From positions 1 to 64,000 of the forward strand of contig NZ_SCVC01000012.1 of the NCBI RefSeq assembly GCF_004297405.1: a stretch of 64,000 bases of DNA, given 5' to 3'. The stretch is from Reyranella sp. (GTDB lineage: Bacteria; Pseudomonadota; Alphaproteobacteria; Reyranellales; Reyranellaceae). The position numbers were made by a program, and so were the translations under genes. This document shows, one piece after another, positions 28,634 to 44,069 of this stretch (positions are counted from its first letter, which is position 1; every line of letters starts with the position of its first letter). A model generated the notes under the pieces. It was given only the letters and a program-made list of their open reading frames with translations. It was not told the origin of the DNA and did no database searches.

Positions 28634-28688
28634 GATCGCCGAACCCTACGCCTCGCTCTCTCGATGTTAAAGTTTTTTGACTTATTTG

Positions 28689-29555
28689 TTACGAGGCGAG
28701 CTTGCTCGCTTCGTCCATGAAGGCCCGGACCAGCGCGACACGGCGGCGTTCCTGAAGGCACACTGCATATTCGGCCACGGCAAGATCACGATCGGCGATG
28801 ACGATGCGGCGAAAGCGGCGGTCTTCGCCAAGTTCGCTCGCGAAGACTGCACCGATGCCGAAGCCGGCGGCCACGGCCTCACGCACGCCTTCGCGTGTCT
28901 GAACCTCGACGATGGACGCCGGCCTGATATCGGCGGCAGCCATCGCCTGTTCAAGCACTTCGCGTGTAATCGAGCCGCGCTCGCGCAGGACCAGTTCCTC
29001 CCCGGCGAGAGCGGCAAGGGGCGTGCGGCCACGTCGGGAGAGCGGATGGCGCGCCGGTACGAAAAGCACCACACGGTCCGTGCGCAGGCGCACTGTATGG
29101 AGCCGCGGATCGGAGATGCTCTTGGCCATCACCGCGACATCGGCCTCGTGGCGCAGCAGGCGCTCCAGCACACCGGCGGAATTATCGATGGAGAGCGCAA
29201 AGGTGAGCCCGCCGGCCCGTTTGCGCAGCGCGCCCATGATCGGCACGACGTGGTGGGCGGAGTCCGCGGCGATGCGCAAATGCCCACGCACCAGCGCCTG
29301 CTCGCCGGCCAGCAACGCCTGGGCTTCGTCCTGTACGGCGAAGAGGCGCGTCGTGATGCCGTGCAGTTGGCGGCCGGTCTCGGTTGGCGTCACGTTGCGG
29401 CTCTTTCGGTCGAACAGGCGCACGCCATAACCCTTTTCGAGCGCGGTCACTTGGCCCGACAGGTTGGGCTGGCTGAGGCCGGAGGCGCGGGCGGCAGCCG
29501 AGAAGGAGCCGGCCTCGGCGACGAGATGGAAGGCGCGAAGCTGGGTGGGTGTCAT
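28689..29555 (-). CDS. LysR-family regulator, probably of the AEP genes
   Basis: Start ATG 29555 gives 288 residues with a classic N-terminal LysR helix-turn-helix (MTPTQLRAFHLVAEAGSFSA; LSQPNLSGQVTALEK) and a substrate-binding domain (LRIAADSAHHVVPIMGAL onward). A longer frame to 29720 runs over phnW and its promoter, so it is rejected. It is divergent from phnW with a 73-bp intergenic region that contains one copy of the 39-bp element described below. The position is typical for an activator of the divergent operon; the effector is likely AEP or a pathway intermediate. Confidence 0.85.
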   Translation of the reverse strand: MTPTQLRAFHLVAEAGSFSAAARASGLSQPNLSGQVTALEKGYGVRLFDRKSRNVTPTETGRQLHGITTRLFAVQDEAQALLAGEQALVRGHLRIAADSAHHVVPIMGALRKRAGGLTFALSIDNSAGVLERLLRHEADVAVMAKSISDPRLHTVRLRTDRVVLFVPARHPLSRRGRTPLAALAGEELVLRERGSITREVLEQAMAAADIRPASIVEVQTREGVREAVAAGFGIGAVFASELGEDRRFRRIVIADRDLAVAEYAVCLQERRRVALVRAFMDEASKLAS

Positions 29556-29567
29556 ATAGAAGAAACC

Positions 29568-29606
29568 GATAGGTAGCATATGGAATATATACTGGACGGA
29601 TAGAAA
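29568..29606 (+). promoter_or_regulatory. Copy 1 of the 39-bp AEP regulon element (phnW promoter region)
   Basis: This stretch between the divergent LysR gene and phnW matches 41782-41820 at 35 of 39 positions. It opens with GATAGGT and contains the unbroken core AATATATACTGG followed by ACGGATAGAAA. TATACT at 29588-29593 would serve as a -10 hexamer, placing a start near 29600, 29 bases before ATG 29629. No TTGACA is present, as expected for an activator-dependent promoter. Confidence 0.75.
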
Positions 29607-29628
29607 GAGCGAGCCGATCATTGAGCTC

Positions 29629-30780
29629 ATGACGACCCCGAAAGCCTCTTCCGAAACCGGCGATCCGCTGCTGCTGACGCCCGGTCCGCTTACCACCTCG
29701 GCCAGTGTGAAGCAGGCCATGGTCCACGACTGGGGCTCACGCGATCAGGGCTTCATCGCCATCAATAAGATGGTGCTGGAGAAGATCGTCGAACTGGCCG
29801 GAGCGCAGGACACCCATGTCACCGTGCCGGTACAGGGATCGGGGACCTTCGCCGTCGAGGCGATGATCACGTCGTTCGTACCGAAGACGGGCAAGCTCCT
29901 GGTCGTCATCAATGGCGCCTATGGCCAGCGTGCCAAGAAGATCGCCGAGATCGCGGGTCGCGGCGTCGCGACCTACGAGACGCCCGAGGATACGCCGCCC
30001 GATCTCGCCAAGCTCGAAGCGATGCTGGTGGCCGACAAGGCGATCACCCACGTCTTCGCAGTCCATTGCGAGACGACCTCGGGCATTCTCAACCCCATCG
30101 TTGAAATTGGAGCGCTTGTCGCCAGGCAGGGCCGCCGCCTGCTCGTTGATTCCATGTCGGCGTTTGGGGCCCTCGAGATCGACGCGCGCCAGGTGCCTTA
30201 CGATGCGCTGGCGGCCTCGTCGAACAAGTGCCTCGAAGGCGTGCCTGGTCTGGGCTTCGTCATCTGCCGCAAGGAGGCGCTGGCCGAGTGCAAGGGCAAT
30301 GCGACGACCCTGGTGCTCGACCTGTTCGACCAGGCTGAGGGTTTCGCCAAGACCGGTCAGTATCGCTTCACACCGCCAATCCACGTCATCGTGGCGCTGG
30401 GCAAGGCGATCGAGGAGCACGCGGCCGAAGGCGGCGTGGCGGGCCGCGGCAAGCGTTATCGCGACAATGCCAAGGTGCTGATCGACGGCATGCGCGCCAT
30501 GGGCTTCCGCACGCTTCTCAGCGACCGGCTGCAGGCGCCGATCATCATCACCTTCCACATGCCGACCGATCCCAAGTTCGTCTTCCAGCGCTTCTATGAC
30601 GGGCTGAAGGACCGCGGCTATGTGATCTATCCGGGCAAGCTCACGGTGGCGGATTCCTTCCGCATGGGCTGCATTGGCCGGCTGTATCCTGAGCACATGA
30701 AGGGCGCTCTCGCGGCCGTACGCGAAGTGCTCGACGAGATGCGCGTTACCAACGGCGGCCCGGCACTGGCGGCCGAGTAG
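29629..30780 (+). CDS. phnW: 2-aminoethylphosphonate--pyruvate transaminase
   Basis: The 383-residue protein has PhnW hallmarks: LLLTPGPLTTS and DWGSRDQGF at the N-terminus, VHCETTSGILNP in the middle and the PLP lysine in SSNKCLEGVPG. It is a fold-type I aminotransferase converting 2-aminoethylphosphonate and pyruvate into phosphonoacetaldehyde and alanine. The two following genes encode PhnA and PhnY, so the aldehyde is oxidised rather than cleaved by phosphonoacetaldehyde hydrolase (PhnX), which is absent. The gene lies directly downstream of the 39-bp element and divergent from the LysR gene. Confidence 0.93.
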   Translation: MTTPKASSETGDPLLLTPGPLTTSASVKQAMVHDWGSRDQGFIAINKMVLEKIVELAGAQDTHVTVPVQGSGTFAVEAMITSFVPKTGKLLVVINGAYGQRAKKIAEIAGRGVATYETPEDTPPDLAKLEAMLVADKAITHVFAVHCETTSGILNPIVEIGALVARQGRRLLVDSMSAFGALEIDARQVPYDALAASSNKCLEGVPGLGFVICRKEALAECKGNATTLVLDLFDQAEGFAKTGQYRFTPPIHVIVALGKAIEEHAAEGGVAGRGKRYRDNAKVLIDGMRAMGFRTLLSDRLQAPIIITFHMPTDPKFVFQRFYDGLKDRGYVIYPGKLTVADSFRMGCIGRLYPEHMKGALAAVREVLDEMRVTNGGPALAAE

Positions 30781-30792
30781 GGAGTTAACAAG

Positions 30793-32058
30793 ATGGCGCC
30801 TGATAGTCTGAACACCACCGGTGGCGAGATCGCCGTCAACGGCCGCCGCTATCGTCTCCCGAAGGAGCCCGTCGTCATAGTCTGCGTCGATGGGTCGGAG
30901 CCGGGCTATATCGAGTGCGCCGTCGAGGCGGGGCAGGCGCCCTGGTTCGCCAAGGTACTCAAAAATGGCGCCAACCTCGCGGGCGACTGCGTGGTGCCGT
31001 CCTTCACCAATCCGAACAACCTCTCGATCGTCACCGGCCGGCCGCCGGAAGTGCACGGCATTTGCGGCAACTACTTCCTCGATCCCGAGACGGGCAAGGA
31101 AGTGATGATGAACGATCCCAAGTTCCTGCGCGTCGAGACGCTGTTTCCGGCTTTCCAGCGCGCCGGCTGCCGCATCGCCGTCGTCACGGCCAAGGACAAG
31201 CTGCGCGGTCTGCTGGGCAAGGGCCTGGAGCTGGGCGCGGGCAAGGCCTGCGCCTTCTCCTCGGAGAAGTCGGACAAGGCCACCCTGGCCGAGAACGGCA
31301 TCGACAAGGTGAACGAGCTGGTCGGCATGGGCGTGCCCGATGTCTACAGCGCCGGCCTCTCGGAGTTCGTGTTCGCGGCGGGCGTGAAGATCATGGAACG
31401 CGATCGGCCGGAGATCATGTATCTCTCGACGACCGACTACATCCAGCACAAGCACGCGCCCGGCACCCCGGTCGCCAATGCCTTCTACGCCATGATGGAC
31501 GGCTACCTGGCCAAGCTCGACGCGATGGGCTGCACCATCGTGGTCACCGCCGACCACGGCATGAACGCCAAGTTCGGCAGCGATGGCCAGCCCGACGTGA
31601 TCTACCTGCAGGACGTGTTCGACGGTTGGCTCGGCAAGGACAAGGCACGCGTGATCCTGCCGATCACCGATCCCTATGTCGTGCATCACGGCGCATTGGG
31701 TTCCTTCGCCGTCGTCTATCTGCCGCAGGGCACGACGGCCGCTGAAGCTGCCGCGAAGCTCAAGGCGATGCCGGGTATCGAGACCGCGCTCACCAAGGAA
31801 GAGGCGGCTGCCCGCTTCGAGTTGCCGGCAGACCGTCTCGGCGACCTGATCGTGGTCTCGACCAAGCACAAGGTGCTGGGAACGTCGGCCGCGCGCCACG
31901 ATCTTTCGGGGCTCACCGAACCGTTGCGCAGCCATGGCGGCATTTCGGAACAGCGCGTGCCGGTGATCTGCAATCGCAAACTGGCCGACGGCGCGGCTGC
32001 CTCAAAGCGCTGGCGCAACTTCGACGCCTTCGATCTCGCCCTCAACCTCGTCGCCTGA
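30793..32058 (+). CDS. phnA: Phosphonoacetate hydrolase
   Basis: The protein of 421 residues is of the alkaline-phosphatase superfamily. CVDGSEP near the start supplies a metal aspartate (D33), VPSFTNPNN contains the nucleophilic threonine position (T72), and [13 protein letters not shown] and VTADHGMN supply the second set of metal ligands. It cleaves phosphonoacetate to acetate and phosphate, with zinc. This C-P hydrolase is unrelated to the zinc-ribbon protein that has also been called PhnA in E. coli. It starts 12 bp after phnW and is 10 bp before phnY. Confidence 0.92.
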
Positions 32059-32068
32059 GAGAGCATCC

Positions 32069-33523
32069 ATGGACACGATCACCCGCGCCGGCGCCGATGT
32101 CCGGCACGAGCATCTGCGCATTGCAGGCCGCAAGGTCGAGACTGGCGCGAGGCTGGAAGTGCGCTTCCCCTGGGACAATCGCCTCGTCGGCACGGTGCCG
32201 CGCGCCACGCCGGAGCTGGTGGCCGAGGCCTTCCAGATCGCGCACGACTACAAGCCTAAGCTGACGCGCTATCAGCGCCAGCAGATCCTGCTCAAAACCG
32301 CCGACCTGCTGGTCGCGCGCAAGGGGGAGCTGTCACGGCTCATCACCCTGGAGTCGGGCCTCTGCCTCAAGGACTCGCTCTACGAGGTCGGCCGCGCCTA
32401 CGACGTCTTTACGTTTGCAGGCCAGCTTTGCATGCTCGACGACGGCCAGACCTTCTCCTGCGATCTCACCCCGCACGGCAAGTCGCGCAAGATCTTCACC
32501 TTGCGCCAGCCGCTCAACGCCATCTCGGCGATCACGCCCTTCAACCATCCGCTGAACATGGTGGCGCACAAACTGGCGCCGGCCTTCGCGACCAACAATT
32601 GCGTGGTGCTGAAGCCGACGGAGCTGACGCCGCTCACGGCGCTGTTCCTCGCCGACACGCTTTACGAGGCGGGCCTGCCGCCCGAAATGCTGTCGGTCAT
32701 CACCGGCAATCCGTCCGACATCGGTGACGCCATGATCGTCGATCCGCGCGCCGATCTCGTCACCTTCACGGGCTCGGTCCGGGTCGGCAAGTACATCGCC
32801 GAGAAGGCCGGCTACAAGCGCATTGTGCTGGAGTTGGGCGGTAACGATCCGCTTATCGTCATGGAGGATGCCGACCTCGACAAGGCCGCGGAACTCGCCG
32901 TCGCCGGCGCCACCAAGAACTCGGGCCAACGCTGCACGGCCGTGAAGCGCATCCTGGTCGTGGACAAGGTGGCCGATGCCTTCGTCGAGCGGGTGCTGGC
33001 CAAGGCGAAGAAACTCAAGGCCGGCGATCCGCTCGATCCGGAGACCGACGTCGGCACAGTCATTCACGAGCGCGCGGCCACGCTGTTCCAGAACAGGGTC
33101 AGCGAAGCGGTGGCCAAGCACGGCGCCAAGCTGCTGCATGGCAATGATCGCCGCGGCGCGCTGTTCCCGCCCACCGTGGTCGATCATGTCGATCCACAGG
33201 CCGAGCTGGTGCGCGAGGAGACGTTCGGGCCTGCGATTCCGATCATCCGCGTCAAGGACATCGCCGACGCCATCCGCGTCTCCAACGGCACGGCCTACGG
33301 CCTCTCCTCGGGCGTCTGCACAGACCGGCTGGACTACATCACCCGCTTCGTCGACGAGCTGCAGGTCGGCACCGTCAATATCTGGGAAGTGCCGGGCTAT
33401 CGCATCGAAATGTCACCGTTCGGTGGCATCAAGGACTCCGGCCTTGGCTACAAGGAAGGTGTCCTGGAGGCGATGAAGAGCTTCACCAACGTGAAGACTT
33501 GGTCCTTGCCCTGGCCGGGCTAG
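32069..33523 (+). CDS. phnY: Phosphonoacetaldehyde dehydrogenase
   Basis: This aldehyde dehydrogenase superfamily protein has 484 residues. Visible catalytic parts are [11 protein letters not shown] (cofactor loop), [15 protein letters not shown], the general base glutamate in VLELGGNDP and the nucleophile cysteine in SGQRCTAVK. Its place right after phnW and phnA makes it PhnY, oxidising phosphonoacetaldehyde to phosphonoacetate with NAD+. Together the three enzymes take AEP to acetate, phosphate and alanine. The operon appears to end here: a 100-bp gap with a large inverted repeat follows. Confidence 0.9.
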
Positions 33524-33575
33524 GGACAGACCAAGTAGGGGTGCCTCGCGCTCTTGGTAGAAGCCTCTGGATTTT

Positions 33576-33617
33576 CTCCTCCAGAAAGAACATATAGAGA
33601 ACAATGTTCTGGAGGAG
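33576..33617 (+). promoter_or_regulatory. Large inverted repeat enclosing the Shine-Dalgarno of the GFA gene
   Basis: CTCCTCCAGAA (33576-33586) is perfectly complementary to TTCTGGAGGAG (33607-33617) across a 20-base spacer. An alternative inner pair, GAACAT (33588-33593) and ATGTTC (33604-33609), shares bases with the right arm. The right arm contains the GGAGGAG ribosome binding site for GTG 33624. It may act as a DNA operator or as an mRNA hairpin that hides the start site. Confidence 0.6.
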
Positions 33618-33623
33618 GAAGCC

Positions 33624-33983
33624 GTGCCCGAGACGAAATCCTATTCAGGAAGCTGCCACTGTGGCGCCGTGACCTATGACGTCGAGCTCGACGTCTCTGG
33701 GGCGATCAAGTGCAACTGTTCGATCTGCAGCCGGCTCGGCGCCGTGCTGGCCTTCGCCCCCAAAAGCAAGCTCACGCTGAAGTCCGGCGAGGACGCCCTC
33801 GTCGATTACCAGTTCGGTAAAAAGCGTCTGCATCATCGCCATTGCCGGAGTTGCGGGATCGAGACCTTTGCCGAAGGCGCGATGCCCGACGGGACACCGA
33901 CGGTCGCCATCAATCTCCGTTGCATCGACGGGATGGACGTGGACAAACTCTCGGCCCGCCCGTTCGACGGGCGAAGCCTTTAG
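33624..33983 (+). CDS. GFA-family zinc protein (glutathione-dependent formaldehyde-activating enzyme-like)
   Basis: GTG start at 33624 behind a strong GGAGGAGG; 119 residues, the usual length. Zinc ligands characteristic of GFA proteins are visible: SCHCGAVTY (CxC), KCNCSICSRLG (CxCxxC) and HCRSCGIETFA. Relatives speed formation of S-hydroxymethylglutathione, though most GFA proteins are of unproven function. A dimethylglycine-dehydrogenase-like enzyme, which can release formaldehyde, lies several genes upstream but is not co-transcribed. Confidence 0.85.
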   Translation: MPETKSYSGSCHCGAVTYDVELDVSGAIKCNCSICSRLGAVLAFAPKSKLTLKSGEDALVDYQFGKKRLHHRHCRSCGIETFAEGAMPDGTPTVAINLRCIDGMDVDKLSARPFDGRSL

Positions 33984-34006
33984 CGTTGCGAGTAGGGGAA
34001 AACATC

Positions 34007-34831
34007 ATGAGTGTCAGTCAGGCAGACAAGGCCAGGAAGTTCCGCGCACTGCACGAGGCGCCCGGCGCTTTCATCATTCCCAATCCATGGGATGCGGGCT
34101 CCGCACGCGTGCTGGCCGGTCTCGGCTTCGAGGCGCTGGCTACGTCGAGTGGCGCCAAGGCGGGTGTGCTCGGCAAGCGCGATGGCAAGGTGACGCGCGA
34201 AGAAGCGCTGGCCAACGCGCGTCTGATCGTGAACGCGACCGACCTGCCGGTTGCTGCCGATCTCGAGAAGGGCTTTGGCGATACGCCGTCAGATGCGGCC
34301 GAGACGATCCGCCAGGCGTCAGGTGTCGGCCTGGTCGGTGGTTCCATCGAGGATGCGACCGGCGACAAGGACAAGCCGCTTTACGATATCGAGACAGCGG
34401 CGACGCGCATCAAGGCGGCCGTCGAGGCGGCGCGCTCGCTGCCCGTGCCGTTCGTGCTGACGGCCCGGGCCGAAGGCTTCCTGCGTGGGCAAGCCGATCT
34501 GAATGATGTCATCAAGCGACTGCAGGCCTACGAGGCCGCAGGGGCGGACGTGCTGTTCGCGCCGGGTCTACCCGACCTCGCGGCGGTGAAGAAGGTTTGC
34601 AGCGCGCTCAAGAAGCCGTTCAACTTCATGGTCGGCATCAAGGGCAAATCCTTCAGCAAGGCCGAGCTCGAGGCCGCTGGTGTGAAGCGCATCAGCCTCG
34701 CCACGTCACTCTACCGCGCCGCCATGACGGGGCTCGTCGATGCGGCGAAGGAAGTGAAGGACAAGGGCACCTTCACCTATCTTGATCATTCGATCCCGAC
34801 ACCGGACCTGAACGCCTTCATGAAGGAGTAG
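34007..34831 (+). CDS. Isocitrate lyase / PEP mutase superfamily protein (first paralogue)
   Basis: ATG 34007 follows AGGGGAAAA and gives 274 residues of a TIM-barrel protein. It shows NPWDAGSARVL near the N-terminus, AADLEKGFGD with the Mg-binding acidic residues and GGSIEDATGDKDKPLYD where the active-site gating loop is expected. The KKCGH motif of isocitrate and methylisocitrate lyases is absent, so it is neither of these. Its subgroup (often labelled carboxyvinyl-carboxyphosphonate phosphorylmutase-like) has no agreed substrate. Nearby AEP genes make an action on a phosphono- or oxalo-acid attractive but unproven. A paralogue is at 39945-40760. Confidence 0.82.
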   Translation: MSVSQADKARKFRALHEAPGAFIIPNPWDAGSARVLAGLGFEALATSSGAKAGVLGKRDGKVTREEALANARLIVNATDLPVAADLEKGFGDTPSDAAETIRQASGVGLVGGSIEDATGDKDKPLYDIETAATRIKAAVEAARSLPVPFVLTARAEGFLRGQADLNDVIKRLQAYEAAGADVLFAPGLPDLAAVKKVCSALKKPFNFMVGIKGKSFSKAELEAAGVKRISLATSLYRAAMTGLVDAAKEVKDKGTFTYLDHSIPTPDLNAFMKE

Positions 34832-34879
34832 GCGTCTCGACGCTCGGCGAAGAGGAGATGAAGCGGATCGCGGCCGAGG

Positions 34880-35257
34880 TCATTTCTCGACCGCGCCACC
34901 GCCTTCGGCCCAGTCCTTGAAGGCGCCGAGGTTGTAGACTTCGTTGAATCCGAAATCCTTCAGCACCTTGCCGCTCAACGCTGAGCGGCCACCCGAGGCG
35001 CAATAGACGATCACGGTCTTGCCCTTGTCGAAGCTCTTGTCGTGATAGGGTGAGTCGGGGTCGGCGCGAAACTCGAGCATGCCGCGCGAGACGTTTACTG
35101 CGCCGGCAACCTTGCCGCTCTTCTCGACCTCGGCCGTATCGCGCACATCGACCACCAGGGTATTGCCCTTGGCGATCATGTCCTTGGCCTCGGCCGGCGT
35201 GATCTTGGGCACCGCGGCATTCGCCGCCTCCATCAACTGCTTGACGCTCGTTGCCAT
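34880..35257 (-). CDS. Rhodanese-like sulfurtransferase, single domain
   Basis: Start ATG 35257 is preceded on its strand by AGGAGG; 125 residues. TLVVDVRDTAEVEKSGKV and the active-site loop YCASGGRSA, with the catalytic cysteine, define a single rhodanese domain. The terminal GAFKDWAEGGGAVEK is also typical. It likely moves sulfane sulfur in the cytoplasm; no signal peptide is present. It is alone on this strand, convergent with the PEP-mutase-like gene and divergent from the Bug receptor gene. Confidence 0.9.
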   Translation of the reverse strand: MATSVKQLMEAANAAVPKITPAEAKDMIAKGNTLVVDVRDTAEVEKSGKVAGAVNVSRGMLEFRADPDSPYHDKSFDKGKTVIVYCASGGRSALSGKVLKDFGFNEVYNLGAFKDWAEGGGAVEK

Positions 35258-35352
35258 GGATATCCTCCTGGTGATCGTTGTCGTGGGAGCTGGTGGGAAT
35301 TCCAGTCCCGCGTGTACAGTGTGACCCAATTGAAAGCTCCGAGGAAACGACC

Positions 35353-36345
35353 ATGTCGTCTTTGTCCCGCCGCCATCTGATGGCGGCTTCCGCGGCTGCG
35401 GTGCTGGTCGCACCGTCGCTCGCCCGGGCGCAGGGCGCAGCGCCGGCCTGGCCTGCCAAGCAGATCCGGATGATCGCGCCCTACCCACCGGGCGGTGGCG
35501 TGGATACGGTCACCCGCGCCTTTTCAGACAAGGTCGGTCCCAAGATCGGGCAGGCCATCGTGGTCGACAACCAACCGGGCGCTGGTGGCGTGCTGGGTGG
35601 CGCGGCGCTCGCCCGTTCACCGAACGATGGCTACACTCTGATGGTGGGTAGCTTGGTCGACTATTCGATCGCGCCATTCTTCCATCAGGGCCTCACCTTC
35701 GACATGGCGAAGGACTTCGTGCCGATCCTCGAGATCGCCAACGGCACGATCGCCGTGCTGGTGACGCCGAGCCTGCCGGTGAAGAACGTGCAGGAGCTGA
35801 TCGCGCTCGCCAAATCCAAGCCCGGCCAGCTCTCCTATGCCTCGTCAGGCTTCGGCGGTCTGATCCATCTCAACTACGAGATGCTGAAGCAGATCACGGG
35901 CGCGGAAATGACTCACGTGCCTTACAAGGGCACGACACAGTTCCAGGCCGACCTCTATGAAGGCCGCGTGCAGGTCTCGATCGACAATGTGCTGGCCCAC
36001 CTGCCGCACATCGCCTCGGGTAAGGTGCGCTGCCTTGCGGTTACGTCGAAGAACCGTTCGCCGCTGCTGCCGGATGCGCCGACCATGGCGGAGGCGGGCG
36101 TGCCGGGTTCTGAATCGGCCACCAACTACACCTTATTCGCCCCGAAGGGCATAGCCCCCGAGATCGTCGCCAGGCTCAATGCTTCCGGAAACGAGGTGGT
36201 CAAGGATCCCGAGTTCCGTGAGCGCATGCTGAAGCTCGGCATTGTCCCCGTTGGCAGCACGCAGCCCGAAGTGCAGGCCAAGCTGACCTCGGAGATGAAG
36301 CGGTGGGGCGACGTCATCCAAAAGGGCAATATCAAGCCAAGCTGA
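35353..36345 (+). CDS. Tripartite tricarboxylate-type (Bug/TctC) periplasmic solute receptor
   Basis: ATG 35353 is selected because it begins a twin-arginine-like signal (SRRHLMAASAAAVLVAP, cleaved after ARA-Q); 330 residues. The mature protein has Bug-family features: IRMIAPYPPGGGVDTVTR, QAIVVDNQPGAGG, GGAALARSPNDGYTLMVG, and THVPYKGTTQFQ. Bug proteins bind carboxylates or amides. No TctA/TctB membrane genes are adjacent, but an MFS carrier begins 10 bp downstream; the receptor may work with a distant TctAB or as a sensor. Confidence 0.9.
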   Translation: MSSLSRRHLMAASAAAVLVAPSLARAQGAAPAWPAKQIRMIAPYPPGGGVDTVTRAFSDKVGPKIGQAIVVDNQPGAGGVLGGAALARSPNDGYTLMVGSLVDYSIAPFFHQGLTFDMAKDFVPILEIANGTIAVLVTPSLPVKNVQELIALAKSKPGQLSYASSGFGGLIHLNYEMLKQITGAEMTHVPYKGTTQFQADLYEGRVQVSIDNVLAHLPHIASGKVRCLAVTSKNRSPLLPDAPTMAEAGVPGSESATNYTLFAPKGIAPEIVARLNASGNEVVKDPEFRERMLKLGIVPVGSTQPEVQAKLTSEMKRWGDVIQKGNIKPS

Positions 36346-36355
36346 GTAGTACCTC

Positions 36356-37570
36356 GTGTTCCATGGTTGGCGGGTCGTTGCGGCCTGCTTTGTCATCGCG
36401 GCCTTCGCCTGGGCGTTGGGCCTGTTCGGCGCCAGCGTCTATCTGCAGGCCGTCACCGCCGCGCATGGCTGGCCGGTGGCCGAAGTGGCGTCGGCCATCA
36501 CGCTCTTCTTCCTCGTAAGCGCCAGCATCCAGCGTCTCGTCGGCCGCAGCATCGATCGCTGGGGGCCGCGGCCGGTGTTGTCGATCGGCGCCGTTTCCAT
36601 GACGCTGGGTGTTGCGCTGATCGGGCAGGTGAGCGCGCCGTGGCAGCTCTATCCCTGCTTCGCGCTGGTCGGCATCGGCTGGTCGACGCTGTCCACCACC
36701 GGCCTCACAGCGACCGTGGCGCCCTGGTTCGAGCGCCATCAGGGGCGTTCCATGACGCTCGCCATCATGGGCGCCAGTCTGGGGGCGATCCTCGGTGTGC
36801 CGTTGCTGTTGTTTGCTCTGGCACGGCTCGGTCTGGGACAAGGATTGATCGCTACGGGCCTCGTTGCCGCGGCGTTGCTGTTGCCGCTGATCTGGCGCGT
36901 GCTGCGCTTTCGTGGCCCGGCCGATCTCGGCGTGGGCCGTGACGGCGAAGCGCGGGCCGTGGGTGCGGTACAGTCCGCCGCCACAACACCCGTCGCCGCT
37001 CTTGGCCGGCCCCGTATCCTGCTGTGGAGCGCCGCGGCGGGCTTTGCGCTCGCCCTGACGGTGCAGATCGGCTTCATCACCCATCACGTTGCCTTGGCCG
37101 AACCTATGCTGGGCACGGCAGGGGCGGGCTTGCTGGTGAGTGCGACCGGTGTGACGGCCTTCGTTGGCCGGCTCGTGCTGGCGCGCATCGTCGACAGGGT
37201 CGATGTCCGGCGGCTGGCCTGCCTCGTCATGGCTGTCCAGACCCTGGCCCTACTTGCCATCGCGCTCTGGCCGACAGCGCCGGTTCTCGTCGCGGCGAGC
37301 CTGGTCTACGGCTACGGCATCGGCCACGTGACGACCCTGGGCCCGGTTGTCGTGCGCCGTGAGTTCGGCGCCGCCGCTTTCGGCGCGACCTATGGTGCGG
37401 CCGCGACCGTGATCCAGCTCGTCTCGGCCTTTGGGCCGGCCCTGCTGGGCTTTCTGCGCGATGGTTTCGGTGGCTACGGGCCAGGGTTGGTGATGGCCTC
37501 GATCATCACGACAATGAGCTGCCTGACGTTGTTCGTTGGCCGCCACTGGGGCAGGCGGCGGAGCCGCTAG
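36356..37570 (+). CDS. Major facilitator superfamily transporter (OFA/monocarboxylate-type)
   Basis: GTG start at 36356, 10 bp after the Bug receptor; 404 residues and about 12 hydrophobic segments. The opening FHGWRVVAACF, the loop VGRSIDRWGPRPVLSIG between helices 2 and 3 (motif A-like), and APWFERHQGRSMTLAIMGASLG resemble the oxalate/formate antiporter and monocarboxylate transporter branch. Substrate unknown, probably an organic anion. The coupling to the receptor and the flavin monooxygenase downstream suggests uptake or efflux of the same compound. Confidence 0.85.
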   Translation: MFHGWRVVAACFVIAAFAWALGLFGASVYLQAVTAAHGWPVAEVASAITLFFLVSASIQRLVGRSIDRWGPRPVLSIGAVSMTLGVALIGQVSAPWQLYPCFALVGIGWSTLSTTGLTATVAPWFERHQGRSMTLAIMGASLGAILGVPLLLFALARLGLGQGLIATGLVAAALLLPLIWRVLRFRGPADLGVGRDGEARAVGAVQSAATTPVAALGRPRILLWSAAAGFALALTVQIGFITHHVALAEPMLGTAGAGLLVSATGVTAFVGRLVLARIVDRVDVRRLACLVMAVQTLALLAIALWPTAPVLVAASLVYGYGIGHVTTLGPVVVRREFGAAAFGATYGAAATVIQLVSAFGPALLGFLRDGFGGYGPGLVMASIITTMSCLTLFVGRHWGRRRSR

Positions 37571-37622
37571 ATCTGCGGAGGGTGGAGTTGCCACGCCCCG
37601 TGCTTTCCGCGATGAAGTTGGC

Positions 37623-39113
37623 ATGGATACAATCGCCGCCCTGATGCCGGCTGACCGCACGGCATCTGAACATTTCGATGTGCTGATCGTCGGCGCGGGC
37701 CTCTCCGGCATTGGCGCCGCCTGGCACTTGCAGAAAGAATGCCCGGGCAAGAGCTACGCCATCGTCGAAGCGCGAGAGGCCAGTGGCGGGACCTGGGATC
37801 TCTTCCGTTATCCCGGCGTCCGTTCCGACTCCGACATGTACACGCTGGGCTATCGTTTCCGGCCGTGGAAGGACGCCAAGGCCATCGCCGACGGGCCGTC
37901 GATCCTGTCCTACATCCGCGAGGTCGCAACCGACCACGGCATCGACCGGAAGATCAAATACCAGCATCGCGTCGTCGGCGCTTCGTGGTCCACGCCCGAC
38001 TCGAAGTGGACAGTCGAACTGGAACGCGGCCCGGATAAGGAACGCGTCTTCATCTCCTGCGGCTTCCTGTGGATGTGCAGTGGTTACTATCGCTACGAGG
38101 CGGGGTACCTGCCGGAGTTTGCGGGTGCCGATCGCTTCAAGGGCCAGATGATCCATCCGCAGCACTGGCCGCAGGATCTCGACTATGCCGGCAAGAAGGT
38201 CGTGGTGATCGGCAGTGGCGCCACGGCGGTTACGGTGGTGCCGGCGATGGCCGAAACGGCCGCGCACGTCACCATGTTGCAGCGTTCGCCGACCTATGTG
38301 GTGGCGCGGCCGGCCGAAGACCCGATCGCCAACAAGCTCAAGCGCAAGCTGCCGCTCAAGCTCGCTTACATGATGACGCGCTGGAAGAACGTCCTGCTCG
38401 GCATGTATTTCTACCAGATGTGCAAGCGCAAGCCGGAGAAGGTGAAGGGCCTGATCCTGGGTGGCGTGCGCCAGATGCTGGGGCCGGACTTTGACGTCGG
38501 CAAGCATTTCACCCCACGCTACAACCCGTGGGATCAGCGTCTATGCCTCGTGCCCGATGCCGACCTGTTCCGCGCCATTCGCAAGAAGCGCGTCTCGGTC
38601 GTCACCGACCAGATCGAGACCTTTACCGAGACGGGCATCAAGCTGAAGTCTGGCGAGCAACTGGACGCCGATATCGTCGTGACGGCGACCGGGCTGGTGC
38701 TGCAGCCGCTCGGCGGCGCGAGCCTCGTCGTCGATGGCAAGCCGGTGAAGCCGTCGGAGACGATGATCTACAAGGGCATGATGTACAGCGACATACCGAA
38801 CCTCGCCTCGGTGTTCGGCTACACCAACGCGTCGTGGACGCTGAAGGCCGATCTCGTCTGCGAGTATGTCTGCCGCCTGCTGAACCATATGGATCGCAAG
38901 GGCTTCAAGCAGTGCACGCCGCGCAACAATGATCCGACCTTGACCGAGGAACCGTGGGTTAACTTCTCCTCGGGCTATATCCAGCGCGCTCTGGCGCATC
39001 AGCCCAAGCAGGGCTCCAAGCGCCCCTGGAAGCTCTACCAGAACTACGCGCTGGATCTGGTGAGCCTGCGCTACGGCTCGGTGCGCGACAAGGCGATGGC
39101 GTTCACGCGCTGA
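37623..39113 (+). CDS. Flavin-containing monooxygenase, Baeyer-Villiger type
   Basis: ATG 37623 begins a 496-residue protein with an FAD motif GAGLSGIG (24-31), an NADPH motif GSGATA (197-202) and the fingerprint F-K-G-xxx-H-xxx-W-P at residues 172-183 that marks type I Baeyer-Villiger monooxygenases and related FMOs. It inserts oxygen into a ketone or oxidises a soft heteroatom at NADPH cost. The hydratase just downstream on the opposite strand and the flavoprotein far upstream at 12287 hint at degradation of cyclic ketones or steroids, but no complete pathway is here. Confidence 0.87.
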   Translation: MDTIAALMPADRTASEHFDVLIVGAGLSGIGAAWHLQKECPGKSYAIVEAREASGGTWDLFRYPGVRSDSDMYTLGYRFRPWKDAKAIADGPSILSYIREVATDHGIDRKIKYQHRVVGASWSTPDSKWTVELERGPDKERVFISCGFLWMCSGYYRYEAGYLPEFAGADRFKGQMIHPQHWPQDLDYAGKKVVVIGSGATAVTVVPAMAETAAHVTMLQRSPTYVVARPAEDPIANKLKRKLPLKLAYMMTRWKNVLLGMYFYQMCKRKPEKVKGLILGGVRQMLGPDFDVGKHFTPRYNPWDQRLCLVPDADLFRAIRKKRVSVVTDQIETFTETGIKLKSGEQLDADIVVTATGLVLQPLGGASLVVDGKPVKPSETMIYKGMMYSDIPNLASVFGYTNASWTLKADLVCEYVCRLLNHMDRKGFKQCTPRNNDPTLTEEPWVNFSSGYIQRALAHQPKQGSKRPWKLYQNYALDLVSLRYGSVRDKAMAFTR

Positions 39114-39131
39114 CGAGCAGGGTGCGCTTTG

Positions 39132-39911
39132 TTAGGTGAAGGCAACCTCGACCGAACCGAAGGGGCCGAAGTCGGCGATATAGGTTTCCCCGGCCTTGGG
39201 TGCGAGCATGCCGGTCAGCGTGCCGGTGCTCACCATCTCGCCGGCCTTCATCCCCACGCCGGTGCGTGAGAGTTCGTTGGCGAGCCAGGTGAGCGGCACC
39301 ATCGGATGGTCGAGCGCGGCCGCCGCCGTGCCCTTGCGGCGGAGCTTACCATTGGAGGCGAGCGTCGCCTCCTGGCCCGCGATGTCGCGCTTGCGCCAGT
39401 CCTCGATCGGCGGTCCGTAGATGATGGTGCCGGAGCCCGCACCGTCGGCCAGGATCGCCGGCAAGGGCGGGAAGGCCGCGTCGTGGATGAAGCGGCACTC
39501 TGCCAACTCTAGGCCGGGATGTAGCGAGACGACGGCCTCGGTGACCTCCTCGACCGAGTAAGGCTTCTCGCGCGGCGGCAGGTCGATGCCAAGCTTTGCC
39601 TGATATTCGACTTCGGGGATCGGGCTCGCGAGCTTGGCGCGCTCCACGGTGAGGGGCGTCGGCTTGATGAAATAGACGCGGCCGTAGATCGGCGAGTCAG
39701 TGCGCAGCGCCTTCTGCATCTCTTCTTTCATGGCGGCGATCTTCCAGCCACGCACCGGCCAGCCGAGCTCCTCGGCGACAAGGCCCGCAATCTTGTAGGC
39801 GGTCGCTTTGTCTGGCGGCACAAGCCCGGTAGCGAGGCCGCTCTGTTGGCGACCATCGCGGCGAAGAGAGGCGAGGAGGCGGGCGACTTCCCGTTGCGCT
39901 TGGATGTCCAT
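39132..39911 (-). CDS. 2-oxo-4-pentenoate hydratase family protein (MhpD/HpaH-like)
   Basis: The protein of 259 residues has the fumarylacetoacetate-hydrolase-like fold: GWKIAAMKEEMQKAL, the EVEYQAKLGIDLPPREKPY segment split around the E-x-E metal motif, ALDHPMVPLTWLANELSRTG and the terminal TGMLAPKAGETYIADFG. These enzymes hydrate 2-hydroxypenta-2,4-dienoates after meta-cleavage of aromatics. No meta-cleavage dioxygenase or aldolase gene is adjacent, so the substrate is open. It is divergent from the second PEP-mutase-like gene with a 33-bp gap. Confidence 0.82.
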   Translation of the reverse strand: MDIQAQREVARLLASLRRDGRQQSGLATGLVPPDKATAYKIAGLVAEELGWPVRGWKIAAMKEEMQKALRTDSPIYGRVYFIKPTPLTVERAKLASPIPEVEYQAKLGIDLPPREKPYSVEEVTEAVVSLHPGLELAECRFIHDAAFPPLPAILADGAGSGTIIYGPPIEDWRKRDIAGQEATLASNGKLRRKGTAAAALDHPMVPLTWLANELSRTGVGMKAGEMVSTGTLTGMLAPKAGETYIADFGPFGSVEVAFT

Positions 39912-39944
39912 CGGTGTTCCTTAGCAGAAAGTGGAGGAGGGGCG

Positions 39945-40760
39945 ATGCGCACGCAGGCGGAAAAGGGCCAGGAGTTTCGCAGGCTGCACGAACAGCCGGG
40001 ACTGTTGCTGCTGCCCAACCCGTGGGATGCCGGTACAGCGAAGCTGCTGCAATCGCTGGGCTTCGAGGCGCTGGCGACGACGAGCCTCGGCATGTCCAAT
40101 GCGTTGGGCCGGGTCGATGGCGACAATGCCGTGAGCCGCGCCGAGCTGCTCGAGAACTGCCGCGTGATCGCTGAGGCCACCGATCTGCCGGTCAATGCCG
40201 ATCTCGAGAACGGCTATGCCGACGATCCGAAGGAAGCGGCGACCATTCTGCGTGACGCCGTGCACGTGGGCATCGTCGGTGGCTCGATCGAGGATTGGAG
40301 CGGCGAGCGCATCTACGATTTCAATCATGCTGTCGAGCGCGTGCAGGCGAGTGTCGAGATGGTGCGCTCGCTCGGCGTACCGTTCACCTTCACGGCGCGG
40401 GCCGACAACCTGATCCGCGGCGTCAGGGATCTCGACGATACGATCCGTCGGCTGAAGGCGTTCGAGGCGGCGGGCGCCGATGTGCTCTATGCGCCCGGCC
40501 TGCGTGACCTCGCGACCATGCGCACTGTGGTGTCCGAGATCGGCAAGCCGTTGAACGTCGTGATGAGTGCGGGCGATCCCGATCTCACGGCAGATCAGAT
40601 CGCCGCGGTCGGCGTGAAGCGCATCAGCGTCGGCGGTGCGCTCTCGCGGCTGGCGCTGGCCGCCTTCATGAAGGGCGCGCGCGACATGAAGGGTGGCAGC
40701 TTCCTCTGGATGCGCGACACCATGCCGACCAGCGACCTCAAGAAGGTGTTCTGCAAGTAG
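39945..40760 (+). CDS. Isocitrate lyase / PEP mutase superfamily protein (second paralogue)
   Basis: ATG 39945 has a GGAGGAGG ribosome binding site; 271 residues. It parallels the protein at 34007 along its length: FRRLHEQPG, NPWDAGTAKLL, NADLENGYADDP and GGSIEDWSGERIYDF in the gating-loop position. Again the KKCGH lyase motif is missing and the loop is shorter than in the first copy, so the two may differ in substrate. It lies between the AEP catabolic and AEP uptake operons but no direct link is shown. Confidence 0.82.
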   Translation: MRTQAEKGQEFRRLHEQPGLLLLPNPWDAGTAKLLQSLGFEALATTSLGMSNALGRVDGDNAVSRAELLENCRVIAEATDLPVNADLENGYADDPKEAATILRDAVHVGIVGGSIEDWSGERIYDFNHAVERVQASVEMVRSLGVPFTFTARADNLIRGVRDLDDTIRRLKAFEAAGADVLYAPGLRDLATMRTVVSEIGKPLNVVMSAGDPDLTADQIAAVGVKRISVGGALSRLALAAFMKGARDMKGGSFLWMRDTMPTSDLKKVFCK

Positions 40761-40770
40761 CCGGGTGTTG

Positions 40771-41229
40771 CTAGGCGGCCTGTCGGTATCGCAATCCACC
40801 CAACGCTGGGATTGTTTCGTCGCCGATCTGGCGCAGCAGTGAGCCGAGATCGTAGTGGAAGCGCTCACTCAGCATCAGGCCGTCCTTGAAGGCGAGGACC
40901 ACGACGAAAGGCTGCACGATCGGCCGGCCGGTCGGCGCGATGCCGAGGAAGGGGCCGACATGTTTGCCGTGCCAGGTTGCCTCGCCGATATAGCCGTCGC
41001 CATCGGTCCAGGCGGAGGTCTGCGTGGGCCCGCGCTTTACCTCGACGTCGAAGGTGGTCCACCATTGGCGATAGTGCGCCGCCGCACCATCGTGGCCATC
41101 CCAGACCTGACCGGTCGCGAGATCTTCGAAACGGCATTCGGGATGCAATGTGGCGAGTGTGCCTGGCAGGTCCTGGGCGTTCTCGGCCAAGAGATGACGG
41201 CGCACGAGGTCGGCGAGTTGGGGGTTCAA
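40771..41229 (-). CDS. SnoaL-like / NTF2-fold protein
   Basis: The start is TTG 41229 with AGGAGAG eight bases upstream; 152 residues. Sequence such as VRRHLLAENAQDLPGTLATLHPECRFED, followed by a WDGHDGAAAHYRQWW stretch and a HGKHVGPFLGIAPTGRPI segment, fits the SnoaL polyketide-cyclase-like branch of NTF2-fold proteins. Members are ester cyclases, hydrolases or have no known activity. It is divergent from the MarR gene over a 50-bp region with an AT-rich near-palindrome, so it is a likely MarR target. Confidence 0.75.
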   Translation of the reverse strand: MNPQLADLVRRHLLAENAQDLPGTLATLHPECRFEDLATGQVWDGHDGAAAHYRQWWTTFDVEVKRGPTQTSAWTDGDGYIGEATWHGKHVGPFLGIAPTGRPIVQPFVVVLAFKDGLMLSERFHYDLGSLLRQIGDETIPALGGLRYRQAA

Positions 41230-41242
41230 GGCGACTCTCCTG

Positions 41243-41269
41243 TTATATTCGAGTGCTGATAATATATAA
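41243..41269. promoter_or_regulatory. AT-rich near-palindrome between SnoaL-like and MarR genes
   Basis: TTATATT (41243-41249) and AATATATAA (41261-41269) form an imperfect dyad in an otherwise GC-rich region, centred between divergent starts at 41229 and 41280. MarR proteins usually bind AT-rich dyads in their own divergent promoter. The AATATATAA may also contain a -10 region for the MarR gene. Confidence 0.5.
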
Positions 41270-41279
41270 GAGGGCTGAT

Positions 41280-41762
41280 ATGAGTCGCAAGACTAGGGCG
41301 ATCGCGCCCATTCCTCGTCCGGGAGAGGGCAAGCGCGGACCGGATGGTTATCTCGGCTATCTCGTGCGCCAAGCCCACGTCGCGGTTCGGGCCGCGATGG
41401 ACAAGGCGCTGGCCGAACTCGAAGTGACGTCACCGCAGTTCGTCGTGCTGACGATGGTTTCGGCCTATCCCGGCCTCTCTGGCGCGGACCTTGCACGGCT
41501 CACGTTTCTCACGCCGCAGACCATCAACCTGATCGTGGGCAACCTCGTGAAGGCGGGCGCGGTCGAGAAGTCGGCCGATCCCGCGCACGGCCGTATCCTG
41601 CGCCTGCAGGTGACGGACGAGGGCGAGGTGCTGCTGAAGCGCTGCAAGGCCCGTGTCCAAGAGGTCGAGGAGCGGATTGCGGGACTGGTCGGGCGCGAGG
41701 AGGAGAAGGTGGTGCGTCGGTGGCTGGCTGCGGTCGGCGCAAAACTGGTGGCGGATCGCTGA
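41280..41762 (+). CDS. MarR-family transcriptional regulator
   Basis: ATG 41280 follows AGAGGG; 160 residues. The winged-helix core is visible as LEVTSPQFVVLTMVSAYPGLSGADLARL, broken into helix 2 (SPQFVVLTMVS) and recognition region (TPQTINLIVGNLVKAGAVEK), then the wing ADPAHGRILRLQVTDEGE. Basic Pro-rich tail at the N-terminus (IPRPGEGKRGP). It probably represses itself and the divergent SnoaL-like gene. Because the AEP importer starts 170 bp downstream, it could also read into or control that operon, but the importer has its own 39-bp element. Confidence 0.88.
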   Translation: MSRKTRAIAPIPRPGEGKRGPDGYLGYLVRQAHVAVRAAMDKALAELEVTSPQFVVLTMVSAYPGLSGADLARLTFLTPQTINLIVGNLVKAGAVEKSADPAHGRILRLQVTDEGEVLLKRCKARVQEVEERIAGLVGREEEKVVRRWLAAVGAKLVADR

Positions 41763-41766
41763 GTGA

Positions 41767-41787
41767 CCTATCGGCAGGACAGATAGG
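41767..41787. promoter_or_regulatory. Dyad CCTATC-N9-GATAGG before the AEP importer
   Basis: CCTATC (41767-41772) and GATAGG (41782-41787) form a perfect dyad with nine bases between. The right arm is the first part of the 39-bp element. In copy 1 only the GATAGG half is obvious (29568-29573). The size fits a dimeric regulator site. Confidence 0.5.
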
Positions 41788-41820
41788 TTTCATCTGAAAT
41801 ATATACTGGACGGATAGAAA
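41782..41820 (+). promoter_or_regulatory. Copy 2 of the 39-bp AEP regulon element (importer promoter region)
   Basis: Matches 29568-29606 at 35 of 39 positions, with an uninterrupted shared core from AATATATACTGG to GGATAGAAA. It lies between the MarR gene stop (41762) and the importer start (41933). TATACT at 41802-41807 is a plausible -10 hexamer. Identity stops abruptly at the right-hand end, as expected for a conserved operator rather than a recent duplication of a longer segment. Confidence 0.75.
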
Positions 41821-41932
41821 CCGTGAACTGATCTTTCCCATATCCGGCGATGCTGCTCTATCGTCGCCGTAACGGAAAGTTCATGATTGCCCTGTAGCGC
41901 AACAAGGGCAGGGTTTGAGACAGGGGACAAAC

Positions 41933-42991
41933 ATGGGGGATGGAATGATCGGGAACAACATCATCAGGCGTGCCGCGCTGGCAGGCGCTGCCGCAGTTGC
42001 CATGGTCGGCCTGGCGGCCGCACCGGCCTTCGCTCAGAAGACCAAGCTCACCGTCTACACCGCGCTGGAGAACGACCAGCTCGATCCCTTCAAGAAGGCT
42101 TTCGAGGCCGACAATCCCGGCATCGAGATCGCCTGGGTGCGCGACTCCACGGGCGTCGTCACCGCCAAGCTGATCGCCGAGAAGGACAATCCCCGTGCCG
42201 ATGTAATCTGGGGCCTTGCCGCGTCGAGCACGGCGCTGTTCGCCACCATGGGAATGATCGAGCCCTATGCGCCGAAGGGCGTCGAGGCGCTGAAGCCGAT
42301 GTTCCGCAGCGGCAAGACGCCCGACACCTGGGTGGGCATGGATGCCTATCTCTCGCTGGTCTGCTTCAACACCGCCGAAGGCAAGAAGGGCAACAAGCCC
42401 GTGCCGGCGAGCTGGGCCGATCTCACCAAGCCCGAGTACAAGGATTCCATCGTGATGCCGAACCCGGCTTCGTCGGGCACCGGCTATCTCACCATCGCGG
42501 CCTGGCTGCAGATCATGGGCGAGGAGGCAGGCTGGAAGTATATGGACGCGCTGCACCAGAACATCGCGCAGTACATCCACTCCGGTTCGGCGCCCTGCGT
42601 GCAGGCGGCCAAGGGCGAGCGCCTGATCGGCATCGGCCTCGACATGCGTGGCGCCTCGGAGAAGACCAAGGGCGCCCCGATCGACCTCATCGTGCCGAAG
42701 GAGGGCCTGGGTTGGGAGCTGGAGGCAACGGCGATCGTCAAGGGTACGAAGAACCTCGATGCCGCTAAGAAGCTCGCCGACTGGGCCGTGACCAAGAAGG
42801 CCAATGAGCTCTATGCCAAGACCTACGCGGTGGTTGCCCTGCCGGACGTGAAGGCAGCACCGGTCAACTATCCGGTCAATGCCGAGCCGGGGATGATCAA
42901 GAACGACATGGAATGGATGGCCAAGAACCGCGAGCGCATCCTGGCGGAATGGACCAAGCGCTACGACGGCAAGTCGGCGCCGAAGAAGTGA
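41933..42991 (+). CDS. phnS: 2-aminoethylphosphonate-type ABC transporter substrate-binding protein
   Basis: ATG 41933 follows AGGGGAC (a TTG at 41915 and ATG 41945 are alternatives); 352 residues with a Sec signal cleaved near AFA-Q (residue 34). Mature features are those of iron/phosphonate-type class F binding proteins: LTVYTALENDQL, WVRDSTGVV, AEKDNPRADVIWG and GTGYLTIAAWLQIMGE. The ATPase and double-length permease directly downstream and the shared promoter element with phnW identify AEP as the probable ligand. A ferric iron role, seen in close relatives, is the main alternative. Confidence 0.82.
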   Translation: MGDGMIGNNIIRRAALAGAAAVAMVGLAAAPAFAQKTKLTVYTALENDQLDPFKKAFEADNPGIEIAWVRDSTGVVTAKLIAEKDNPRADVIWGLAASSTALFATMGMIEPYAPKGVEALKPMFRSGKTPDTWVGMDAYLSLVCFNTAEGKKGNKPVPASWADLTKPEYKDSIVMPNPASSGTGYLTIAAWLQIMGEEAGWKYMDALHQNIAQYIHSGSAPCVQAAKGERLIGIGLDMRGASEKTKGAPIDLIVPKEGLGWELEATAIVKGTKNLDAAKKLADWAVTKKANELYAKTYAVVALPDVKAAPVNYPVNAEPGMIKNDMEWMAKNRERILAEWTKRYDGKSAPKK

Positions 42992-43001
42992 TCCGCACCG
43001 C

Positions 43002-44069
43002 GTGACCTACCTCGAGGTTCGTAGCCTTTCCAAGCGCTACGGCGACTTCACTGCCCTCGGCGATATCACGCTCGATATCGCCGAGGGCGAGTTCGTCTGC
43101 TTCCTGGGGCCCTCCGGCTGCGGCAAGACCACCTTGCTGCGCGCCATCGCCGGGCTCGATCCGCAGAGTTCCGGCACGATCCGCCAGAAGGGGCGGGACG
43201 TGTCGGCGCTGCCGCCGGCGAAGCGCGACTTCGGCATTGTCTTCCAGTCCTACGCGCTCTTTCCCAACCTGACGGTGGCCGACAATGTCGGCTACGGGCT
43301 GGTCAGCCGTCGCGAGAAGAGGGCCGCGATAGCGGCCCGCGTCGTCGAGCTGCTGGCGATGGTCGGGCTGCCCGATGCCGGTCCGAAATATCCCGCCCAG
43401 CTCTCGGGTGGCCAGCAGCAGCGCGTGGCGCTGGCGCGGGCACTGGCGACCTCGCCGGGGCTATTGCTGCTCGACGAGCCGCTGTCGGCGCTCGATGCCC
43501 GCGTACGGCTGCGGCTGCGCCATGAGATCAAGGCACTGCAGCGCCGGCTCGGGGTGACCACCATCATGGTGACGCACGACCAGGAAGAGGCGCTCACCAT
43601 GGCCGACCGCATCGTGGTTATGAACCACGGCGCCATCGAACAGGTCGGCACGCCGCAGGAAATCTACCGCCGCCCGGCCTCGGCCTTTGTTGCCGATTTC
43701 GTGGGCTCGATGAACTTCCTGCAGGGCACCCTAATGGCGCCCGACAAGGTGCAGGTGGCCGGCGTCGATCTGGCCTGTCCGGGTCAGGACGGGCTGACTC
43801 TCGGGCAAAAGGTCAATCTCTGCATCCGGCCCGAGGATGTGCGGGTGCGTGACCTGCCTCAAGGCACTGCCAACCGCCTGACGGTCGAGGTGACTGAGCT
43901 CGATTTCGTCGGCGCGTTCTGCCGCGCCACGCTTAAAGCCCGTGCCACGACCGACGTGGCGATGACGGCCGACTTTTCGAGCAATCTGATCCGCGATCTG
44001 GGCGTCGAGCGCGGCACCCAGCTCGACGTCGCCCTGCCGCCGGACCGTCTCAGGGTCTTCGCCGCGTGA
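43002..44069 (+). CDS. phnT: 2-aminoethylphosphonate-type ABC transporter ATP-binding protein
   Basis: GTG start 43002, 10 bp after the binding protein; 355 residues. Walker A GPSGCGKTT (36-44), signature [13 protein letters not shown], Walker B LLLDEPLSALDARVR, and a C-terminal TOBE-like regulatory domain after residue 240 (VNLCIRPEDVRVRDL). The architecture is that of PotA/FbpC/PhnT importers. It overlaps the permease start by four bases (GTGA), so the subunits are coupled in translation. Confidence 0.87.
   Translation: MTYLEVRSLSKRYGDFTALGDITLDIAEGEFVCFLGPSGCGKTTLLRAIAGLDPQSSGTIRQKGRDVSALPPAKRDFGIVFQSYALFPNLTVADNVGYGLVSRREKRAAIAARVVELLAMVGLPDAGPKYPAQLSGGQQQRVALARALATSPGLLLLDEPLSALDARVRLRLRHEIKALQRRLGVTTIMVTHDQEEALTMADRIVVMNHGAIEQVGTPQEIYRRPASAFVADFVGSMNFLQGTLMAPDKVQVAGVDLACPGQDGLTLGQKVNLCIRPEDVRVRDLPQGTANRLTVEVTELDFVGAFCRATLKARATTDVAMTADFSSNLIRDLGVERGTQLDVALPPDRLRVFAA

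Follow-up and report, generated by a model that had tools for sequence, protein, structure and literature searches.

The operons for degradation and uptake of the natural phosphonate 2-aminoethylphosphonate (AEP) in a 64,000-nucleotide stretch of Reyranella sp. DNA (here called the window) share a 39-bp element in their promoter regions. The best reading of this element, well supported by comparison of related genomes, is that both operons belong to one regulon that would be controlled by an AepR-like LysR-type protein encoded at 28689..29555. The original prediction had proposed such a two-operon regulon, and the comparison supports it. Each 39-mer is very probably the middle of a conserved unit of about 67 bp, a predicted composite LysR-type operator and promoter. 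The evidence lies in the conserved anatomy of this unit, its co-occurrence with lysR, its copy number, and what survives of it where lysR is absent.

RESULTS

Two copies of the element precede the AEP operons

The copies lie on the plus strand at 29568..29606 and 41782..41820, as determined by pattern and sequence comparison. As had been claimed, they agree at 35 of 39 positions (blocks of 8, 8, 10, and 9) and share an uninterrupted 23-base run, AATATATACTGGACGGATAGAAA; this run matched twice, and 100 shuffles gave no match. A random background 39-mer of the same composition would equal copy 1 at 35 or more bases with a probability of 3.8e-19, or ~5e-12 genome-wide on both strands. In the 6.46-Mb genome, the 39-base pattern and a 19-base core of the element, each allowed up to three mismatches, matched only the two known places. 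A profile of the extended element recovered the two copies, both of which had contributed to it, with expectation values (E) of 2.5e-21 and 1.3e-15. The next and last match (up to E of 10) was partial, with E of 0.43, and no third regulon member was found in this genome by the profile search.

The copies precede phnW and aepX, which confirms their assignment to plus-strand promoter regions of AEP operons. Two further details of the earlier description were revised. Similarity does not stop at the borders of the 39-mer: a left half-site (TATA at 29555-29558 in copy 1 and TATC at 41769-41772 in copy 2) and a downstream hexamer (GATCAT at 29616 and GATCTT at 41830) recur at equal offsets. The operons are separated by about ten genes as judged from the open reading frames, rather than by eight, and these include marR directly before aepX.

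The element follows lysR across the order

A search of this genome and its relatives, originally suggested as a check, gave two copies here and an element that follows lysR in the relatives. Seventy-six genomes of the order, including this one, were surveyed, and the regulator (called at E up to 1e-60) was present in 57 and absent from 19. The pattern derived from the two copies in the window (up to three mismatches) matched 48 genomes: 47 of those 57 and, among the 19 that lack the regulator, only G070. The profile matched 58 genomes, 33 of which had supplied profile rows and so match by construction; these 58 comprised 56 of the 57 regulator genomes and two of the 19 others, namely G070 and, with an E of 0.036, G073. 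In the sole regulator genome missed by the profile (G054), lysR is a fragment at a contig end. The profile gave 63 matches in the order, with a maximum of two per genome. Six genomes encode a PhnW above the cutoff and have no regulator; five of these have no element (G008, G009, G010, G039, and G046, the contig of G046 starting at phnW), and the sixth is G070.

A second collection of 64 loci, mostly from the same species, was also examined. The profile (E up to 5) matched 59 of the 64, and all matches overlapped the lysR start or lay within ~30 bases of it. Divergent loci outside the profile (L218, L207, L210, L219, L206, and L217) matched at E values of 8.6e-9 to 0.005, again at the lysR start. 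The element thus appears to go with lysR and not with phnW as such, beyond the genus as well, and to weaken with distance.

In G070 (locus L113, positions 106-141 of contig C244), phnW is preceded by the right part of the element, the left part differs, and the match lies 105 bases from the contig end. This partial element may reflect either a recent loss or the edge of the assembly.

Anatomy of the predicted operator and promoter

The operator model was built from 36 sequences that we chose from the fetched loci, including both copies from the window, aligned without gaps. The unit of about 67 bp contains a TATM-N9-KATA dyad (T-N11-A), a second pair of half-sites 32 bp further on with a -35-like TGGACG inside the pair, and a -10-like GATC[A/T]T 17 bp after TGGACG. 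Invariant positions in the 36 rows are the two T's of TAT in the left half-site (outside the 39-mer), the AT of its mirror, and positions in the ATATA, GGA, and GATAG parts. Among 51 aligned phnW promoters, TGGACG is present in all 51, and the block 17 bp downstream is GATCAT in most.

At phnW, the predicted LysR recognition dyad TATA-N9-GATA (29555..29571, plus strand, center 29563) was located by invariant alignment columns and a symmetry scan and overlaps the lysR start codon. The predicted activation half-sites TATA-N7-GATAG (29588..29603, plus strand, center 29595), located by alignment and symmetry scan, are centered 32 bp from it. The predicted -35 TGGACG is at 29593..29598 and the predicted -10 GATCAT, based on column conservation, is at 29616..29621 (both plus strand), which would place the transcription start near 29628, at the phnW ATG. 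The aepX counterparts, all on the plus strand, are a predicted recognition dyad, TATC-N9-GATA (41769..41785, center 41777; symmetry scan), that overlaps no start codon; predicted activation half-sites, TATA-N7-GATAG (41802..41817, center 41809; alignment and symmetry scan); a predicted -35, TGGACG (41807..41812; comparison with phnW promoters); and a predicted -10, GATCTT (41830..41835), with a start probably near 41842. This last assignment draws on GATC[ACT]T at equal spacing in all five aepX copies found in the order.

In these five aepX copies, where the left half-site is free of a start codon, the dyad scores 5.6 of 7 pairs at the predicted center. The best of 47 other scanned centers, at 4.0 of 7, is the predicted activation site TATA-N7-GATAG, exactly 32 bp away. 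The layout fits that expected of a LysR-type activator site, in which a T-N11-A dyad shares one face of the helix with a putative activation site that overlaps the -35. In the textbook LysR model, the recognition site lies at about -65 and the activation site at about -35 from the transcription start; the predicted sites would lie at -65 and -33 if transcription begins at 29628, a position deduced from sequence.

TATACT (29588-29593) was considered as the phnW -10 and rejected. It would place the recognition dyad over the -35 and leave the conserved GATC[A/T]T unexplained, and TGGACG-17-GATCAT persists where lysR is absent. A transcription start 7 bases after GATCAT would coincide with the phnW ATG. 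No AGGA, GGAG, or GAGG was found 4 to 14 bases before any of 50 script-located phnW starts in the order, the script being rough (it picked an unusually near ATG in 8 of the 50). The mRNA of phnW is possibly leaderless.

Loci without the regulator

In G009, G010, and G039, lysR is missing and a sodium/phosphate (Na/Pi) transporter gene adjoins phnW. TGGACG-17-GATCAT is kept before phnW in all three genomes, and none of them retains GATAG, ATATAT, or the dyad (GAT persists in G039). These loci thus appear to distinguish the sequences that would be required by RNA polymerase from those that would be required by the regulator. No promoter of the TGGACG-17-GATCAT type was found before phnW in G008.

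The regulator

The lysR gene (28689..29555, minus strand, divergent from phnW) was assigned using Pfam and NCBIfam. Its product matches HTH_1 (PF00126) and LysR_substrate (PF03466) above their gathering scores and is 98% identical to its counterpart in R. massiliensis 521. Residue 30, which in BenM and CbnR reads the T of T-N11-A according to the available text of PMC12609908, is Pro in six of seven aligned rows, including this regulator, and Ala in L108. The co-inducer is assumed to be AEP from the gene context.

The aepX promoter region and its history

Second copies of the element were found in five genomes of the order (G000, G013, G018, G021, and G035). All are upstream of aepX, at most ~250 bases before it and immediately after the marR stop codon, and they retain the half-sites and GATC[ACT]T at equal spacing. 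Within Reyranella, the element occurs at the transporter only in this species group and in one other genome, where it lies upstream of a Pho-box-like repeat.

A possible second aepX promoter, consisting of a degenerate Pho-box-like repeat (9 of 11 positions) and CTGTAGC, is located at 41867..41900 on the plus strand. A Pho box was taken to be two or more TGTCA-like repeats, with a spacing of 11 bp, in front of a promoter. Upstream of aepX, a pair of Pho-box-like repeats with a TGTAGC-like hexamer after it is found in many relatives. In a shuffle control, 45 of 68 aepX upstream regions, some of them from paralogous binding-protein genes, reached 9 of 11 positions with a downstream hexamer (GTAGC, GTAAC, or GTAGG), compared with 0.07% of 1360 shuffled sequences; without the hexamer requirement, the values were 55 of 68 and 7.6%. 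With identical regions counted once, 39 distinct sequences were aligned. Tandem GTCAT repeats of a like kind precede the one pstS-like gene of this genome. Uptake through aepX may therefore be under two controls, AEP and phosphate limitation, with an AepR-type promoter upstream of a Pho-box-like one.

At L072, L073, L085, L086, and other loci without the element, a conserved GTTAAGGTTTTGTGAA-like stretch follows a CTTGCC- or CTTGTC-like hexamer, as seen by eye. This stretch occupies the place where carriers have the AepR-type promoter upstream of aepX.

Outside Reyranella, aepX, together with aepV and aepW where the contig continues, directly follows the phn genes at six loci (L209, L211, L212, L216, L224, and L225); in Reyranella, the phnW and aepX starts are ~6 to 25 kb apart where they are on one contig. 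In an AepX tree, G000, G013, G035, and G018 form a supported clade and G021 falls elsewhere, so that two changes are needed, but a single clade of the five carriers was not rejected (approximately unbiased test, p-AU of 0.33) in the analysis with the second AepX tree, which omitted the long-branch rows G006b and G073. One reading of this distribution, which we regard as evenly balanced between true and false, is a regulatory repair: aepXVW would originally have lain after the phn genes behind a single AepR promoter, been split from them by intervening genes in the Reyranella lineage, come under Pho-box and other promoters, and later been relinked to AepR by a second promoter. In this reading, the relinking would have taken place in the R. 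massiliensis group, with the new promoter set directly behind the stop codon of marR, and may have happened independently in G021.

Genes of the AEP operons and their neighborhood

The degradation operon comprises phnW (2-AEP-pyruvate transaminase, 29629..30780; TIGR02326, TIGR03301, and PRK13479), phnA (phosphonoacetate hydrolase, 30793..32058; TIGR02335), and phnY (phosphonoacetaldehyde dehydrogenase, 32069..33523; TIGR03250), all on the plus strand. All three products exceed the curated cutoffs, so that the PhnW-PhnY-PhnA set for AEP degradation is complete in one gene run. The uptake operon, also on the plus strand, encodes an AepX-type (PhnS2) AEP-binding protein (41933..42991; TIGR03261), a transporter ATPase (PhnT2; 43002..44069; TIGR03265), and a transporter permease (PhnU2; 44066..45754; TIGR03262). 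All three models were matched above cutoff, which identifies a predicted AepXVW-type transporter.

A Na/Pi cotransporter-PhoU gene (26951-28633) adjoins lysR on the same strand, and 45 of 64 loci have a relative on the strand of lysR. Its product may export phosphate freed from AEP. Just upstream of this gene, at 28634-28690, inspection of the minus strand by eye shows Pho-like repeats. Genes at 22007-26984 for glutamine synthetase-like, iron alcohol dehydrogenase, and FAD/GcvT-type oxidoreductase proteins are kept beside lysR in many Reyranella; speculatively, they could serve a methylated amine, perhaps N-methylated AEP. Between the AEP operons are two genes of the phosphoenolpyruvate (PEP) mutase/isocitrate lyase superfamily (34004-34831 and 39942-40760), below all NCBIfam cutoffs, and similar genes occur near phnWAY in many relatives. 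At L177, L178, L179, L184, L189, and L203, a second aepX-like binding-protein gene (48 to 51% identical) lies between the FAD/GcvT and Na/Pi genes, and the profile found no element at it in these six loci.

DISCUSSION

A working model for joint control of AEP uptake and degradation

Binding by the regulator, its effector, the transcription start sites, and the direction of regulation are predicted here from sequence and comparison. In the proposed mechanism, one regulator dimer would occupy the dyad TATM-N9-KATA (centers 29563 and 41777), and a second would occupy TATA-N7-GATAG (centers 29595 and 41809), which lies three helical turns (32 bp) further on and overlaps the weak -35 TGGACG. The co-inducer would be AEP or a metabolite, in whose presence RNA polymerase would be brought by the regulator to TGGACG-N17-GATC[A/T]T; the degradation genes phnWAY and the uptake genes aepXVW would then be turned on together. 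Copy 1 overlaps the lysR start, and lysR is thus probably autoregulated as well.

Several observations weigh against a two-operon regulon under AepR-like control. Symmetry is modest: across all 36 rows the dyad averages 4.0 of 7 pairs, compared with up to 3.4 at neighboring centers, and single-sequence dyads exceed shuffles (p < 0.05) in just 3 of 19 intergenic regions. The case for an operator therefore rests on conservation at fixed positions. The best of the 51 NCBIfam models matched by the regulator, TIGR03339 (phn_lysR), which describes the LysR subfamily associated with AEP, scores 276.5 bits, below its curated cutoff of 341.1, and for this reason the protein is named AepR-like and not a TIGR03339 member. 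In the second collection, five of 64 loci (L211, L216, L220, L221, and L224) had no profile match with a relative of the regulator present (L220 ends at a contig edge), and matches at L209, L212, and L225 were weak (E of 0.02 to 0.1). The six contiguous loci outside Reyranella, where transporter and phn genes sit together behind a divergent lysR, accordingly gave weak profile matches or none. Most Reyranella have no element at aepX, so that the coupling does not extend to the genus as a whole. G070 keeps a partial element, yet no lysR was found there. The three lysR-less genomes G009, G010, and G039 may represent a single lineage and so a single event, and common descent by itself could account for the part of their promoter that is kept. 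Finally, the authors of PMC9311074, in its available text, offer the speculation that in Pseudomonas each AepR controls no operon but the adjacent one. Our confidence in the regulon is high and not higher because the profile evidence is partly by construction and the six contiguous loci match weakly or not at all.

The element could instead be a conserved core promoter only, with an activator acting elsewhere or not at all. The -35- and -10-like hexamers, 17 bp apart, do persist without lysR. However, conservation reaches ~40 bp upstream of the -35, and a general promoter would be expected at many genes, yet no more than two matches per genome were found among the 76 genomes, with two here. 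We consider this explanation quite unlikely.

Binding of the element by another factor, such as MarR (encoded at 41280-41762, just before aepX) or PhoB, is decidedly improbable. The marR gene adjoins copy 2, and a Pho-box-like repeat lies nearby; however, that repeat differs in sequence and is ~50 bp downstream, and the element goes with lysR beyond the genus too. MarR was rejected as the binding protein, as the element is absent from 22 of 27 aepX upstream loci that have a marR relative.

That two near-identical stretches 12.2 kb apart are a dispersed repeat or a recent segmental copy of no regulatory meaning is very unlikely, to the point of being negligible, given that only two copies occur in 6.46 Mb, that the element stands at lysR in other genera, and that the flanks resemble each other mainly at the half-site and -10 positions. 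With two copies in the genome, the refutation by a dispersed repeat that was named with the original prediction fails.

Significance

With AepR-like control of both operons, a shared switch would let the cell turn on AEP uptake and breakdown together. A defined operator would make it possible to search other genomes by sequence for uptake genes induced by AEP. If the split-and-relink history is true, uptake would have shifted from phosphate-starvation to AEP-inducible control in some species but not in others closely related to them. Near relatives that differ in whether they carry the element at aepX, and in whether they have the regulator, provide a ready set for studying the exchange between these modes of control.

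Comparison with known systems

The regulator resembles the AepR proteins of Pseudomonas putida BIRD-1 (at phnWX, aepXVW, and aepP) in being a LysR-type regulator encoded beside AEP genes (PMC9311074, available text). In BIRD-1, AepR is important but not essential for AEP induction of phnWX, and when AEP is the phosphorus source, the aepXVW and phnWX promoters need both AEP and PhoBR to be fully active (PMC9311074, same text). BIRD-1 has three AepR proteins, each speculated to serve its own neighboring operon, whereas in the window a single regulator appears to act on two operons that lie apart. The available text of PMC9311074 describes no operator sequence for AepR. No AepR operator or phosphonate LysR site sequence, in Reyranella or elsewhere, was found in the literature searched, which omits most subscription papers.

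The predicted site resembles the classical LysR operator, as described in the available portions of PMC12609908 and PMC11739112, in its T-N11-A dyad and in a second pair about three turns away over a -35-like hexamer. It differs in that the activation pair here has N7, not N9, spacing; the start sites here are predicted ones. PhnR (phosphonoacetate) and PalR (phosphonoalanine) also provide LysR-type, substrate-induced control of carbon-phosphorus (C-P) hydrolase genes (PMC10574752, in part) and are phylogenetically distinct from AepR (PMC8316502, in part). For Stappia, LysR-mediated substrate induction was left in an earlier paper as a hypothesis for later study.

Most Alphaproteobacteria have one lysR upstream of aepXVW-phnWAY (PMC8316502, available text). 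These bacteria, including the six loci outside Reyranella examined here (L209, L211, L212, L216, L224, and L225), have the same genes and type of regulator as the window; there, a single lysR-phnW promoter is followed by an unbroken run of transporter and enzyme genes, whereas in the window these are split and appear to be connected through the second element copy. The operator predicted here, for a LysR-type regulon of two operons, was not found in the papers searched; AepR itself is already known to activate in dependence on AEP.

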